Source: Phascolomyces articulosus (lineage: Eukaryota; Mucoromycota; Mucoromycetes; Mucorales; Lichtheimiaceae). From it: a stretch of 64,000 bases of DNA. A program made the translations under genes and the position numbers. Positions 29,075 to 38,813 of this stretch are shown here, in pieces (the first letter of the stretch is position 1; every line of letters starts with the position of its first letter). The notes below the pieces were generated by a model, which saw nothing but the letters and a program-made list of their open reading frames with translations, did not search any database and was not told the origin of the DNA. The stretch is taken from positions 558,001 through 622,000 of the forward strand of contig JAIXMP010000025.1 in NCBI GenBank assembly GCA_025677815.1. Direction: 5' to 3'.

Positions 29075-29084
29075 GTGAATAAGA
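29075..29084. repeat. Target site duplication, left (GTGAATAAGA)
   Basis: Perfect 10-bp direct repeat of 33284-33293, immediately outside the MULE terminus. Duplications of 8-11 bp are diagnostic of Mutator-like elements. Confidence 0.92.
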
Positions 29085-29475
29085 GGGTGGTGTGTTTTTT
29101 TGTGGGCTTTTTGGCATTTTTGTGTATTTAGCCACAGATTTTTTGTGTACTTCGCCACCGGTGTGGATGTTACACAGTACTTTGGGTATTATAAAAAGCG
29201 ACTTTTTTTGTGTACTTTTTTTTGTGTACTTTTTTTTAGGGGCCTGTCTCTTCATGGCGCTCACTCCCCTCACTCAAAAGATTTTTTTTGTGTGGTATTT
29301 TTTGTGTGGTTTTTTTTTTTTTTTTGTGGTTTTTTTTTTTTTTGTGGTTTTTTTTTTTGGTGTGGTATAAACTAGGTATCTATCATTTACAGCATTATAT
29401 AGTCCATATTACAAGCGATTTTTTTTGTGTGGTATTTTTTGTGTGGCAAATTCAAAATGTACTTTTTGTGTGGTT
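29085..29475. repeat. Subterminal T(n)GTGTGG motif array
   Basis: More than ten copies of runs of 5-9 T followed by GTG, GTGTAC or GTGTGG, in the same orientation as the motif in the terminal repeat. A block of about 30 bp built from two such units recurs at roughly 29280 and 29418. Only the left end carries the array. It may be a transposase-binding region, or simple repeat expansion of the terminus. Confidence 0.75.
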
Positions 29476-29971
29476 TATCAAGTGATTTTTATTCATCTTT
29501 TTTTTAAAAAAAACTATCTTAGGCTCTGGTTACAATAGTTATAACTATTCTATTTAACTATTCTATTGACTATATATATCTAATATTTGTCACTTACCAA
29601 GTATATTGAACTATTTACTAACAACGTCATATAATCATACAACTTTACTTCACCAATTCACCTCAGGTTCACATAATTCAACCTGAGTAAACCATACCTT
29701 ATTCACACATGACAAATACATATTGATCCACTTGATCGTACAATATAAAGGCATATAGACCATCCTTATATGAAACCCGAAAGAATAAAACAAAACAACA
29801 ATTGAAATAAACAACAAGAAAAAAAGTCATCAACTTATCTCCAAATGGGTCATTGCCCGTCTATGTTACGAATTAGTTAAATTATAATGCTTTGTCAGTT
29901 AACTATAATGAGTGAAAAGAAAAAAAAAGTTAGTACCATTTTGGTTAACCATATTGAATATTACATACATG

Positions 29972-32900
29972 TTAAATATGGTGTCTTTGGTGATAAAAAT
30001 CCAACCATGTTGTTGATAGTTGCTTTCTCTTCACATAAGGTTCATAGGTGAGTTCCAAACGTGGCCATTGCATATGATTAATTGCTTCGTCTTTCATGAT
30101 AACTGTATAGAAATGTATTCTATCCAAGTGTAATATAATGGGGGTTTTGTCGTCATCTGTATTCTCTGTTTCGACATATGGCAAGAATGTAAATGATGCT
30201 TCAATGGGAGTTGTCAATACAATGACTGGTCGATTATAAACTTGAGCTAAAACAATTGGACATTCCAGATTGTCAAACCACAACCCCATTGTCACCGGTC
30301 CTTCTGGCTGATCAAACTTCTTCATCAATTTATGGTAAAGTGTTTCACCAAACATATCCTTAAACAGTGTCGATTGCTGTTCCATTTTTGTCTTCATACA
30401 TAACTTGACAACAAAACACTGGTCTTCTTTTCCATAAATTGCAAAAGATGCAGCCCGCCAACCACAGTTACCATCATCAACAGGGCTATATCTCCCAATA
30501 ACGCCTTCTTTATCCAACTTGAACTGGCGCATATGTAAATCCGACATGGGAAGAAGGTTAAACTCACGGACCATCGGCTTAAACATCTTCTCTCTATACA
30601 AATAAAACATAACCAGTTATAAATTTTAAAAACATACCATGTTTCTTTTTTTTTATCAGTTATCGGCAATCTGCCTTCTCACCTAGCAGACTTTTCATTT
30701 ATCATCTTCATTCGTTTTAATTCGCGTTCCTCTTCTTCCATTCTTCTTCTCTTCTTGTTCTCCTTATATTCTTCACGTATTTGGTTTGCTTGCTGCTCGC
30801 GCCTGGCTGCCAACAATTCTCGTCTCGACTTACCATGCTCCTCCTTCGGCTGGTCTTTTTTATCGCCGTCAACCTTTCCCTTCTCATCACCACTCTTTTC
30901 TTTTTTCTTTTCTTCCCCTATATAACACAACACATTAATGTAAATGTATGGAATATATATAAAATATCAAAATGTAAACAGTACAATAAATGAAAATCGG
31001 GTACTAACCATGACCAAGAAGAGCTTTGGTAGTGTCAGGTGCACGTCCATCGTTTATAAATCTCTCCTTCTTTGGCTTTGAACTATCATAAAAAGAAATA
31101 TATAAGTACACTAGCTAATCATACAAAAATATGATAATACCTTTTATTTTGAGTGTCTTTAACTCTGAAGCCATTGTCAAAGCATTCAAAGTCTTTTTCC
31201 AGTGATTGTAAGTAATAAAACATTTGACGTAATGTTTCAATCACTGGTTTCTTGGCATGAACAATCCTATAAAGATCTCGATGGTACGCCTCAATGCCAT
31301 TGGTTGTACGACATTTATTTTCTTGCAATTCTTTCTTCAAGACAGCCTTTGATCTGAAAATCATTACCGCAATTTCATCTCTTGTCCACCATTTTAACCA
31401 ACGATGGCAGTTTGGAAATTCGTTGTGTAGATCCTGTACTGCACTATTGAATGTCTTTTCGGTTTTGGCATTATACATCTTGTTCGTCAAATTCAAAAAA
31501 TTATCATCAAAGCCACGAGGAACGACAAAGTGATTGCTGACTATGCGCTGGACCGACTGCTTCCAATGATGATAGCATCCACGAAGGAGCGTAGTTGCAT
31601 CAATGTTGCTTCGAGGAAACGCATCCATAAACGCATCAAGAAAACCTTGACGTTGGGATTGGGAAAAATCCATAACCTATAACAATATATATATATAGTT
31701 CATACATTCAAAAATCACGTACCAGTAAGCAATACAATCAAAATACAGCCGGTTTCGCCGTTCATGTTTACAATGCAACTCGACAATATTGTGGCTGTTA
31801 AGTTACTTGTTTTCACGTCCTTATTCTATGTTCTACAACCTCCCCTCGTCCATATAGTATATGCTCCTTCTATATCAAACATGCTCACATGCTCAAGACA
31901 TTTTTTCATACCCATATCCTTATCACAAACTTCATTAACTGAACCTCTCAATACCCTTTCCCTTTCACCCATCACTCTTTCACCAATCACCTTTTCATCC
32001 AAGCCTTTTACCCCATCACTCGCTCACCATCAAAACACTCATTCTATCACCAACCATCTACACTACAGTAGATCATTTTATACACTTACCAGCCCCGAAA
32101 AATTAATATCCAGTTCCTCGTCTGACTTGCCAAATGCAAATGCAAAGGTACGAAAGAAGGATAGAAAATAAGCCTTGAAATGTGTGGCTGTCAAACCATC
32201 AAGAACAGCTTGAAAAACCACACCAAACTTACCCGTCTCTTCAAAAAATATATTTGTAGAACACAGGTAATAACCCTTCGAGAAACAATCGTATGTGACG
32301 TCGGTGAGGATAGGGTAAGATTGAAAATCGACACGAGCAGCAACAGTTGGGGCACAGAACGTAATGCAGAATTTGCCGGGTGTTATATCGGTCGATTGGA
32401 GGTAATCGGGAAACTCCTCAATAAGATTACCAAGCTCGTCACTAGCAGATTCCAATGAGGGGCGGCTTGAAGGGAGTTTTCCTCTCTTGACAAGAAAATT
32501 ACGTCGGTAACGTTTAATTTTGCCGAGACGATGCAATGTCTTGCTGATTTTGATCATTGGTCGTGCTGGTTGTTGTGGACGTATACTGCTGGTGCCAACT
32601 TTCAACGCGTATGCTGTTTCTGACGGGCATTCAAGCACACGTTCCTCCACTTGGTCAAGAACTTCCATGGTGTCATGCAATGGTTCAAACCTGTTATGAG
32701 TGTGTGTGCCTTGATGGTCAAGTGTACCTATTCTCCCAGTAAACTTGAAGTTCACTCTAACTGAACAACAAATGTGCTGCAAGGAGTGTTCATTACAGAA
32801 TTCACAAGTGCCTTTGACCTGCTTTTCTATACCTTTAGGCGTACTCATGGGTCTGATTATCTTGCCACACGACTTATTGGTACAGTTTACTGCACCCAAA

Positions 32901-33079
32901 CAAATCTTGGTGATACTGAGGCCATTCTTGATGTGGCCATAATTTCTTTGGAAAAGCTGCCATCCAATGCTCATGTCATACACATATTCTTTTTCGTTGT
33001 TTTTGCTGTTTTCCTTTTTAGCTTCGCGAAGTTGGATTTGGTAAATATTTTTACCATCAGGAAATTGAGGGAAAGACAT
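29972..33079 (-). CDS. MULE transposase fused to C-terminal OTU cysteine protease
   Basis: Five exons: 32090-33079, 31141-31676, 31009-31082, 30683-30917 and 29972-30593; 818 residues with all phases agreeing. N-terminal zinc-finger-like Cys/His cluster (about residues 60-125, ending near HQGTHTHNR). DDE candidates: D260 (LTDVTYD), D333 (VMDFSQSQRQGF) and E459 (TTNGIEAYHRDL); the MULE CxxHxxQSVxR block (CYHHWKQSVQR) follows the second Asp. Residues about 515-610 form a highly charged Lys/Glu linker. The C-terminal domain has the OTU signature DDGNCGWRA with Cys655 and a downstream LDRIHFYTV with His772. The two catalytic modules therefore share one polypeptide. The OTU part could remove ubiquitin-like tags from the transposase or host factors; that is inference. 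A 413-nt first intron is the longest. Confidence 0.9.
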
Positions 33080-33283
33080 GGTACAGTAATAAAACAGTGA
33101 TAATGTAATTGGAAGTAATTAAGAAGTAAGAATAATTCAAACAATTTACAAGAGTATCCTTTTAATGTATTCATTTAATTGCGTATAGACTGCTTTTCCT
33201 CTTCCCCGACTGCTTTTCTTCTCGCCTATTTCAATTTTTTGTCAGCTGCTAAATCAAAAAACCCCACAAAAAAACACTCACCC

Positions 33284-33293
33284 GTGAATAAGA
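33284..33293. repeat. Target site duplication, right (GTGAATAAGA)
   Basis: Matches 29075-29084 exactly and abuts the right terminal repeat. Confidence 0.92.
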
Positions 33294-34711: not shown

Positions 34712-36014
34712 AACTTGTCAATCATCATGTGTTTTTATGTTATACTCAATTGGTTGCTATTAATGATATGTATTCTAAATAATAATCATTTGATCAATCA
34801 GAAATACATATTTTAAAACCAGTATAATGGGAAGATAAAAGATAAAATACTTATTATCTACATGCTGACAACTATCACCTCCTAAATATTGAATCCCTTA
34901 AAGCTCTTTATTATAAACCCGTACATAACATACAATGGTTTTTTACATTTGAGATGAAGGCAACCAGCAGAAAAAAAGGGAGGGGGGTCGTGGGTGTTTA
35001 TGAATGATAATAATGTTGATGTTACAATCATTATTAAAAAGAAATAGACAGAAAATTGGGGGAAAAGAAAATCAGCGTGGTGGTGAATGAAATAACTTGG
35101 ATGAAATAATCTTCTATCTCTTATTTAGCATACAGTGTGTGAGTGTGAGTGAAACGTGTTGTGTGGGGTTATCATAACTCTGATTCTTTTCGGCATTTCC
35201 CCTAAATAAGTTTTTTTTTATAAGGTCAGCGATACTAAAATCATCCGGAAAACGAAAATAAAAGTCGATAAAGTTATGTAGGAGATAAATTTTATTATTT
35301 ATCGTCCATGGTCCCCACCAATACATTTATTATACACGTTTTAGATCCACTATCTTACAAATTCCATATAGTCGATCGATGTGATCCGAGGAACAGAAAC
35401 TGGGCAAACCGTGAACCTATTTACTTTGAAAGGAGAGTCGTATGTGTGAAATAGTGATTAGGTAGGTAGTTGTTGATAGATACAGTTAAGATTGATAGTG
35501 AATAGGTAGAAAAGGAATAAGAAGAGAATACTATATAAACATAAAGAAAAGGGTGATGATCATCGGTTTTATTCATACACTATTCTAACAGGTATATGAA
35601 ATAGTGAAAAAAAGGAGCAGCAACAGATATTTACTATTAAGTACGTGTGTGTGTACGTGGTGAACAGCTTTATGCCGCGGAATGGAAAGCCTTTTAAGAG
35701 AACCAATCAAAAAAACAGATTTGCCACAGTATTTTACTTACTCACATCTCTTCACCCAAAGTATTTTATTGGGGGGTCCCATGTTCAAATTCGGTCGCGG
35801 ATTCCGTGTACAAAATACCTTCGAATTTCCCAGAACAAAAATTTCGCATTTTATTTATAAAGCAACCTGCTTTTTTTACTTTTTTTCCATTTCCGAGATT
35901 TTCAAATTTTCTTTTCCTTTTTTTTTCTTCTTTTTTTTTTATTATCATATTTTATTATTTTCTCTTCTTTTTTAAAGGTACCAAGGAAGAAGAAGAAGGA
36001 TAAAAAAAGGAAAC

Positions 36015-38813
36015 ATGTCAAGAAAATCATCTGCAGAACAACCAAGACGTGTCAAGGTGACTTTGGCTTGTATCATATGTCGTAAAAAAAAAGTAAAATG
36101 TGATGGTGTTCAACCTACTTGTTCGCGTTGTCATTCAATGGGTATCCAATGTCAATATTCAGATCCACCCAAGAAACGAGGTCCACCTAAAGGTTATGTT
36201 GAGGTCATTAATAATCGAGCCCATCGTATTGAATCATTATTGGGAAAACAAAAACCAACAAATAATAGTCCTTTATCTGCAACTACTGGTAAAGAAAAGT
36301 TTAGGATTTTTTCTATCAATCTTTTTTTTCCCCACATTTAATCCATACTCACATATTTTTTCACACACAAAATTAGTTTGGTCTCCGTCGATCACTACCA
36401 ACAATGGTAACAACCGTGCAAATATTGAAGATCCAGTGTCGCCCAACTCACCAACTACACCTACCCCTGTTACTTTACTTCCACAACAACAAAATGATAT
36501 TCTTAAACTTATCACCGAAGCTTCTGGTGCAGTAAAAGCAAAACTATCAAACAGTAACCATCCTAGTGACCCTGTACGTTTTTTGTTTTTGTTTATGTTT
36601 ATATATGTATATGATGAGACACAGAAATACTGATAAGGTCCATTCTATGATGTTAATCTCTAGGGCAGCCACCAAAATATATTTGCTTCTTCCCCAGATA
36701 ATGATAATATCAACAATAACCGTCACGACGAAGAGAATAACATGAGCGATGAAGAAGAAGAGAATGCGCTTATTTCTTCTGAACTTGCATTGTTATGGGC
36801 AAATAATGTTTTTCAATATTTCAACATCTTTTTCCCGATTTTGTCAAGACAACATTTCTTATTTCAACTGACTCATCAAAAACGTTCAATGAATCCATTG
36901 TTACGTTATGCTATTTATGCCCTCGGTTGTCGTTATAATAATCCAGAAGACAGAAATGCCCAACATTGGTTTGATAAAGCATTTACTTTAGTTGACCACG
37001 AGATCAATGTATCACTTTCCACTGTGCAGGTAAAACACCATCTTTTTTTAAAAAGAAAAAAAAAACCTCTTATATTATATATATAATCACATGATATGTA
37101 AATATGTAAACCTAACTCTCTCCACACTCTAATTTACATATATAGGCACTTGCCATCATGTGTTGGTATAGTTATCTATCAGGCGACATACAACAATGCC
37201 ATCATTTACGTCGTCAATTATATCGTGCTGTTTATGATTGCAATCTTGGTCAAGAGGTAACAACAGCTAATCATTCAGTGGTAGAACAAGAAATGCGCCG
37301 TCGTGGATTATGGGCCTCATACGTGATTGATCAATGGCTTGCAGTTTGTACGGGAGAAAGGGTTCAGCCAGCCATGATTACATCCACTTGGAATGTCAAG
37401 TTACCCAAATTGGAAGACAACCAACTTTATGCAATTGATATTCGAAACTTGCAACCTCCTCCTGCAGGTGGACAACAAGAACTATCGGTAGAATCAGCAC
37501 TTCAAGTGGCAGTGTTTTCTGAAATGGTGAAACTTGTCAAAGTGGTAGTGTGTTCCTGTGATGGACGGAATGCAAAGGCTGCATTGACAGAATGGTTGCT
37601 TCATTTACCTCCCTACCTCGAATTCGGAAAGGCTACAGATGACAGTCCACCCTCCCCTATTGCCAGAATTTTTCATTTGTTATACTATACAGTACAAGTG
37701 ATGATCAACAGGCCCATGGGTACATTACCTACTTCACCAATTCATTCTTTCCATCAGCAACAAGGCAATAGTACAATAACAACGATGGACCATGATGGTA
37801 CAACGGCTGCTAATACGATCATTCATATCGCCGAACAAATGATTTATAGCAATCAAACCAAATATCTCTATAATGTTTTTGGTTTGTCGCTTACACTGGC
37901 AACGACGATCTATCTTGAAAATGCTCGGTTGTTCGATAGTACTCCCGTCAACAACAATTTGACTCGTAGCATCAATATTCTTAAACAAACCAACTGTACT
38001 ATTGTTCCTCGTGCTGATATGGATCGTATTCTCCATCGATTTGTTATCAATCGATGTGGTATTATACTTGATCTTTATTCCCATCACCATAGTCAAGAAC
38101 AACCACAACAACAACAACAACGATCAAGAGCAGCGCTACATCAATCACATCCATATGCTGAATTAAAACCAGCAAGTTTAAAGCGACCACATCTTGGGGA
38201 TGAACTTGAACGTGCTGTGAAACGACCTTCATTTGATTTCTCTCGTTGGTTACCTCCAGAGGGACAGCAGTATAACATCCCGTCGTCGTTCCATGTGACG
38301 GGCAATTATAACAATCTCGTGGGTTTGTTTACCACCGCAACAACAACAGAATCCAGTACAACAATAGAAGCAACATCTCCCAACAACAATATTACTTCTT
38401 CTAGAGTGCCTATTGATATGATGACTACTACGGCCGCCGTAGCAGCAGCAACGGCAGTAAACTTTCAAATGGATTTCTGGAACAATGAACAAAACTTATT
38501 TTCTACCACAACACCTACATCTACATCAGCATCCACTTCATTATTTCAACCATCACCATCTTCATCAATATCTTCTCCAATGGTTACACCAAAACCAACC
38601 ACCACGAACAATCCATCTCCCGCTTTAACCATGATCACAACACCAATAGAAACATCCACTTCATCTTACTTTTTACCTCATGTTAACAACAATTCATCAT
38701 CTCCAACATTATTGCCTAACAATCATGGCTTTGATCTTTCTAAAGAGAATGCTATTCATGATCTCATTTCCGATAATTTTTTTTCCATTGATTTCCAAAA
38801 CACTATCATCTAA
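36015..38813 (+). CDS. Zn2Cys6 fungal-type transcription factor
   Basis: Nuclear DNA-binding regulator. Four exons: 36015-36288, 36377-36573, 36664-37029 and 37146-38813; 834 residues. The N-terminal zinc cluster has six Cys at 19, 22, 29, 36, 39 and 46 (CIICRKKKVKC then CSRC), followed by a KKRGPPKGYV linker and a short helix (RIESLLG). A fungal transcription-factor middle homology region is recognisable from NVFQYFNIFFPILSRQHF through ALGCRYNN, MCWYSYLSGD and LWASYVIDQWLAVCTGE. The C-terminal ~250 residues are Thr/Ser/Asn/Pro-rich with Gln runs, probably an activation region. Target genes are unknown. It stands alone between the MULE and the third P450. Confidence 0.9.

Follow-up and report, generated by a model that had tools for sequence, protein, structure and literature searches.

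Transposons of the MuDRF branch, which are known from rusts, other Basidiomycota and Naegleria, combine a GCM-type DNA-binding domain and a DDE transposase in one protein and generate 9-bp target duplications; they are very distant from other MuDR elements, with four PSI-BLAST iterations being needed (Cantu et al. 2011, PMC3164196). Here we describe an element of Phascolomyces articulosus (Mucorales, Lichtheimiaceae) that fits this branch and whose predicted protein ends in a protease domain of the OTU type. It lies in a stretch of 64,000 nt (JAIXMP010000025.1, 558,001-622,000, forward strand), hereafter the window, to which coordinates refer unless a contig of the same genome (C1, C15, C67 and the like) is named; P0001, P0002 and so forth are annotated homologous proteins. 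Our preferred reading, held with moderate confidence, is that this 4,199-bp element is a MuDRF-type transposon whose GCM, DDE and OTU-fold protein would, through its OTU part, strip ubiquitin off the transposase and off its partners at the element ends.

Deubiquitinase domains have been noticed in transposons several times already (Ginger1, Helentrons), and a transposase paired with an OTU domain is known from other mobile elements; for the MuDR/MULE type such a pairing is apparently unreported. Among the matches listed in the literature searched, none was a MuDR or MULE transposase with an OTU tail, and the term MuDRF itself led to PMC3164196 as the only relevant source, a paper that describes GCM, DDE and 9-bp duplications in common with our element and whose main text does not contain the word OTU. 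Nor does the main text of a MULE diversity survey use "OTU", "protease" or "GCM" (Dupeyron et al. 2019, PMC6446971), and the MULE-Mucorales group it defines shares a Mucoromycota host, one open reading frame and a 10-bp duplication with our element but differs by a SWIM zinc finger and 40-bp terminal repeats. Ginger1 elements (Bao et al. 2010, PMC2836005) likewise join a DDE transposase to a C-terminal OTU or Ulp1 domain (depending on the family), yet their transposase is Gypsy-integrase-like, with an H2C2 zinc finger, a GPY/F motif and an unrelated DNA-binding part, and the hosts tabulated there are animals; a Pfam integrase match was not found in our model at E <= 10 (no Ginger-specific profile was run). 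Kaonashi and other Ulp1-bearing plant MULEs are Mutator-type elements with an Ulp1 protease domain, in agreement with what a preliminary description of the window, made from its letters, had said of some plant MULEs, but in them Ulp1 resides in an accessory VANC-type gene and no OTU is fused behind the transposase (PMC13317346). Helentrons carry OTU and/or VTD deubiquitinases as exchangeable classes, for which a role in preventing proteasomal degradation has been proposed, but are built on a rolling-circle RepHel protein and have no DDE transposase (PMC9741609, PMC6431247). That description also knew of no well-described OTU version in fungi, which stands for MuDR and MULE elements within the matches above but not for Helentrons, certain fungal members of which are reported to bear OTU (PMC6431247). 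As of 2022, transposon OTU domains were without activity tests (PMC9741609). Finally, OTUD5 (DUBA), A20, Cezanne and VCPIP1 have the OTU fold and the DGxC...His arrangement of the window tail but are host enzymes, 15-25% identical to it and devoid of a transposase.

The preliminary description had placed its feature at 29972-33079 and overlooked the GCM domain at the N-terminus as well as the terminal repeats, target duplications and further copies; the complete element is wider and comprises the following parts:

29085-33283, minus strand: complete transposon, 4,199 bp, from the alignment of six genome copies
29075-29084, no strand: target-site duplication GTGAATAAGA, the same 10 bases flanking both element sides
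33284-33293, no strand: target-site duplication GTGAATAAGA, matching the opposite flank
29085-29112, minus strand: terminal inverted repeat on the gene's 3' side, imperfect and with a one-base offset; copy similarity stops at 29085; pairs with 33256-33283
33256-33283, minus strand: terminal inverted repeat on the gene's 5' side; pairs with 29085-29112

The imperfect inverted repeats begin GGGTGAGTGTTTTTTTGTGGGG and GGGTGGTGTGTTTTTTTGTGGG. Six copies occupy six different sites (on C1, C15, C28, C29, C32 and C37, with C29 being that of the window) and show no substitutions over 4,199 bp, two of them being one base of length off the window copy. Target duplications are 10 bp long for the window copy and 9 bp for four others of the six; C1 has none. 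Since no substitutions separate them, we read the copies as the product of a very recent burst of cut-and-paste-like movement. The element holds one recognisable gene, whose single predicted protein likely moves it. A pattern search with the terminal repeats gave 18 matches in the genome against none in the backward control, of which 12 are the ends of the six copies, one is an end of a diverged relative on C70 and five lie elsewhere. Two of these five, at C38:68397 and C38:68952 (region 68397-68978), face each other at a distance of about 580 bp, each with three mismatches, and may represent a short non-autonomous derivative. The C1 copy (C1:488248-492447) keeps both ends intact yet lacks a target duplication, which might point to recombination between two copies or to a rearrangement of the flank. 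Past the gene's stop, the element end at 29280-29485 contains runs of GTGTGGTTTTTTT-like units that are possibly transposase-binding repeats, and both length differences among the copies fall in these runs.

Within the element, the gene and its domains are laid out as follows:

32090-33079, minus strand: exon 1 with the start, the GCM domain and the first catalytic Asp (D260, in 14 of 14 covering rows among 15 aligned)
32696-32968, minus strand: GCM-type zinc DNA-binding domain, about residues 38-128, from profile A1 against mouse GCM1 (1odh)
31141-31676, minus strand: exon 2, putative transposase core with D333 (12 of 12 covering rows), C364-x2-H367 (11 of 11) and E459 (11 of 11), again among 15
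31009-31082, minus strand: exon 3, a conserved NDGRAPDTTK segment aligned in P0001, P0002, P0005, P0007 and others and seen in P0014
30683-30917, minus strand: exon 4, a charged, likely coiled linker with basic clusters, aligned with the P0002 linker; same exon in C67, C21 and C27
29972-30593, minus strand: exon 5, predicted OTU protease domain (residues 613-818) and stop; AlphaFold pLDDT 87.8, with OTU enzymes as matches in Foldseek and VIA
30464-30466, minus strand: codon of the predicted catalytic Cys655 (DGNC box), with Asp652 at 30473-30475; invariant in alignment A3 and aligned with the OTUD5 DGAC box
30113-30115, minus strand: codon of the predicted catalytic His772, nearly invariant in A3; P0001 ends before it

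These five exons, which we predict to be spliced into one mRNA, translate to 818 residues, with D260, D333, E459, C655 and H772 exactly where the preliminary description had put them. It had also relied on the exon chain being phase-consistent; the chain is indeed in phase but, as many alternative in-phase chains exist, we dropped this as proof and used comparison instead. When aligned with the 824-residue annotated protein P0002 of Circinella minor, three of the four exon junctions are free of gaps, the small NDGRAPDTTK exon included; gaps do occur in the linker alignment, and the stretch that contains the exon 4/5 junction is gappy. Diverged copies on C67, C21 (near-copies of each other) and C27, with OTU domains only 38-40% identical to that of the window, present by eye the same order: first the core, then the NDGRAPDT exon, next a lysine-rich exon with a GTGAG donor at its end, and lastly the OTU exon. 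Four proteins (P0001, P0002, P0005, P0014) have the core and the OTU Cys box in a single annotated chain. P0002 alone reaches the OTU His, whereas P0001 and P0014 stop before it and the P0005 model leaves the homologous frame there; the P0002 core is without the stretch around C364, and P0014 is a partial record. P0005 is an annotated Phascolomyces articulosus protein. The window's own protein was absent from the 10 matches of the protein search, the best of which reached 54% identity. Exon order in the diverged copies and the fused annotations thus bear out the earlier idea of a DDE core and an OTU domain in one gene model, and exon 4 that of a charged linker between them. However the exons are spliced, the terminal repeats enclose the OTU exon, and it moves along with the element.

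As for the N-terminal part, profile A1 matches the mouse GCM1 structure 1odh (E 6.8e-6), Pfam PF03615 matches three of 10 family members (best E 4.7e-5), and six Cys and two His positions are kept in all 14 covering rows of the 15 aligned, P0005 lying outside these rows. PF03615 gave no matches in a search of the own genome, but the controls were silent too. Babu and colleagues are said to have described WRKY-GCM1 fingers in 2006. One homolog, P0015, has a homeodomain-like start fused to a GCM-type core and is possibly a misjoined gene model. The preliminary description had spoken of MULE features and of PF10551; its D/D/E core stands, but neither the model nor exon 1 or exon 2 matches PF10551 at E <= 10, and in none of the profile tests (Pfam and, as given below, hhalign) does the transposase come out as a PF10551-type MULE. 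MuDRF, the GCM-bearing MuDR branch, is the better label, because the published description of that branch is what we find here: a GCM domain, a DDE core in the same protein and 9-bp duplications (four of the six copies).

Exon 5 encodes a well-predicted OTU fold, the nearest structures to which are VCPIP1, OTUD5, A20 and Cezanne (Foldseek, VIA). Across the 12 aligned tails of A3, Asp652 and Cys655 are invariant and His772 nearly so, and the predicted fold has the Cys-His arrangement, made up by Cys655 and His772, that had been proposed from the letters. A profile of the 12 tails matches OTUD5 at E 6.1e-8. A protein search with the OTU region only had 84 candidates, none of them at E <= 0.001, which we treat as a limit of the search since P0001 and P0002 plainly hold the domain. 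The tail is likely an active deubiquitinase. A catalytically dead tail that serves as a ubiquitin-binding or scaffolding module would be in line with its low identity to known enzymes (8-25% in structure-match rows), but seems improbable to us given the invariant DGxC box and nearly invariant His, and given that the ratio of nonsynonymous to synonymous substitution rates (dN/dS) is 0.24-0.30 in four of seven OTU pairs (C100a-C19, 0.24; C100a-C40, 0.24 and not independent of the former; C80-C46, 0.25; C21-C27, 0.30 at dS 1.3).

How might these domains work together? We propose that the GCM domain would bind the terminal repeats, that the DDE core would cut and paste with a 9-10 bp stagger and that the OTU tail, tethered at the element ends by the same chain, would reverse ubiquitination. 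Its most likely substrate would be the transposase-DNA complex, which may in this way escape proteasome- or Cdc48/p97-linked removal during transposition. Such self-protection of the transposase is our first choice, at roughly even confidence, with an action on chromatin or repair factors coming second. In the latter scenario, OTU would act on host proteins at the cut site (ubiquitinated H2B, H2A or PCNA, for example) and so steer repair or open chromatin. A DNA-binding domain in the same chain would bring the tail to the break, and a DNA-repair role has been proposed for the OTU and Ulp1 tails of Ginger1 (PMC2836005), but the predicted fold does not fix chain type and substrate, VCPIP1, OTUD5, A20 and Cezanne being close together. 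To our minds this scenario is unlikely, though well worth keeping in view. Far less probable still, the tail might be a self-processing protease that frees the transposase in the manner of a polyprotein: it is C-terminal and follows a long charged linker, and some mobile-element proteases do cleave their own chain, but its nearest structures are deubiquitinases, the usual substrates of which are bonds after ubiquitin.

Several points weigh against a single MuDRF-type protein that protects itself by deubiquitination. The one mRNA is a prediction and the annotations in its favour are gene models, not transcripts. The annotated P0015 stops before the OTU, and of 15 OTU frames compared, some of them near-copies, 11 (that of the window among them) have an in-frame Met before the catalytic Cys of the DGNC box. 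On both counts the OTU might be a separate protein with a start codon or an alternative transcript of its own, and the element a two-product transposon; we hold this to be rather improbable, as no such Met is present in the other four frames, the linker exons are conserved as protein and four annotations are fused. On its own, the window OTU does match PF02338, the domain named in the preliminary description, but its 15.2 bits stay under the Pfam cut-off of 23.3. Two of the seven dN/dS pairs, window OTU with C21 and with C27, are saturated in dS, because of which selection on the window OTU has to be judged from its relatives; for another pair (C100a-C58) dN/dS is 4.0 at a dS of 0.01, and we take this for a copy in decay or for noise. 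Deubiquitinase activity is likewise a prediction. The annotated P0005 model is without two of the zinc Cys positions, and the window protein searched alone gave no GCM match. For the transposase, the DDE call is based on sequence rather than on a solved or predicted structure, and hhalign of GCM-type with PF10551-type (FAR1-type) cores of the same genome yields probabilities of about 0.2% or less in all settings, some of which pair the C-x2-H segments of the two core types at no significance. The self-protective role itself is one that we infer.

The window element is not alone in its genome in having an OTU behind a transposase. Searching with the window OTU uncovered at least 27 places (30 matches, with pieces less than 1 kb apart merged; both are lower bounds), and 24 of the 27 lie downstream of a transposase core on that strand; of the remaining three, one lies near a contig end (C14) and two (C56, C58) are places where no core was found. 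PF02338 added two further OTU places, C16:90958 and C100:1034862. A second family has PF10551-type (FAR1-like) cores in seven copies (L024-L028, L030 and L031, on contigs C40, C19, C43, C32, C100 and C18), their OTU frames lying about 1.47 kb downstream. Between the point where the core match ends and a point past the OTU stop, six of the copies are 98.3-99.96% identical to the seventh and, going by these sequences, the family is a second recently mobile one. In addition, the GCM-type core of an element at C24:18161-20832 (minus strand) is followed, eight bases on and in another frame, by an OTU like the C80/C46 subtype. In the tail tree (11 of 16 tails, the five left out being near-copies or short rows) this OTU groups with those of FAR1-type C80 and C46 (99/97), and a single clade for all GCM-type tails is rejected (approximately unbiased test, p 0.008). 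In the core tree (13 rows, after removal of five partial proteins; C24, P0007 and P0008 on long branches) C24 sits with C13, C56 and P0009 of Circinella minor (100/99). These last three (C13:272849-275700, minus strand; C56:1694075-1696728, plus strand; P0009) have, behind GCM-type cores, a tail that is not OTU and that bears a Cys box (MSCYIDA) and, further along, a GxHxKTT motif. Of the three tails, only that of P0009 matches UCH, and this below the threshold (E 0.025); searches of the PDB with this kind of tail, by sequence and by profile, gave no protease, and the AlphaFold model of the tail from a three-sequence alignment is uninformative (pLDDT 31.7); a USP-like cysteine protease is thus a lead only. 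P0009 is annotated with core and tail as one chain, and in C24, C13 and C56 the two could be joined by any of many possible introns.

Because 24 of 27 OTU places follow cores, FAR1-type elements have OTU too, C24 holds another subtype and a USP-like tail is possible, the deubiquitinase tails look exchangeable to us. We put forward tentatively, at somewhat less than even confidence, that in Mucorales transposons the C-terminal slot of GCM-type transposases takes OTU subtype A (the window element), OTU subtype B (shared with the FAR1-type transposases that this genome contains) or a USP-like cysteine protease. An exchange of OTU subtypes, perhaps along with a USP-like class, points to the activity rather than one fold as what selection keeps, and would fit selection for deubiquitination itself, as has been argued for Helentrons and herpesviruses (PMC9741609).

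Outside the element, 2.7 kb from the insertion, an open frame at 35976-36341 (plus strand) has a CxxCx6CDxxxPxCxxC pattern like that of a fungal Zn2Cys6 regulator.

Animal GCM regulators have a proposed origin from transposases, on which the GCM domain of this element bears. The host is a saprobic mould, and the element makes a good test case, being compact, with one recognisable gene and six substitution-free copies, five of them with target duplications. It could reveal whether an element depends on its own deubiquitinase in order to transpose, and thereby whether ubiquitin is a means by which hosts keep transposases in check. If the exchange of tails is true, transposons would repeatedly recruit deubiquitination itself, and thereby escape a ubiquitin-based check of their hosts on transposition.
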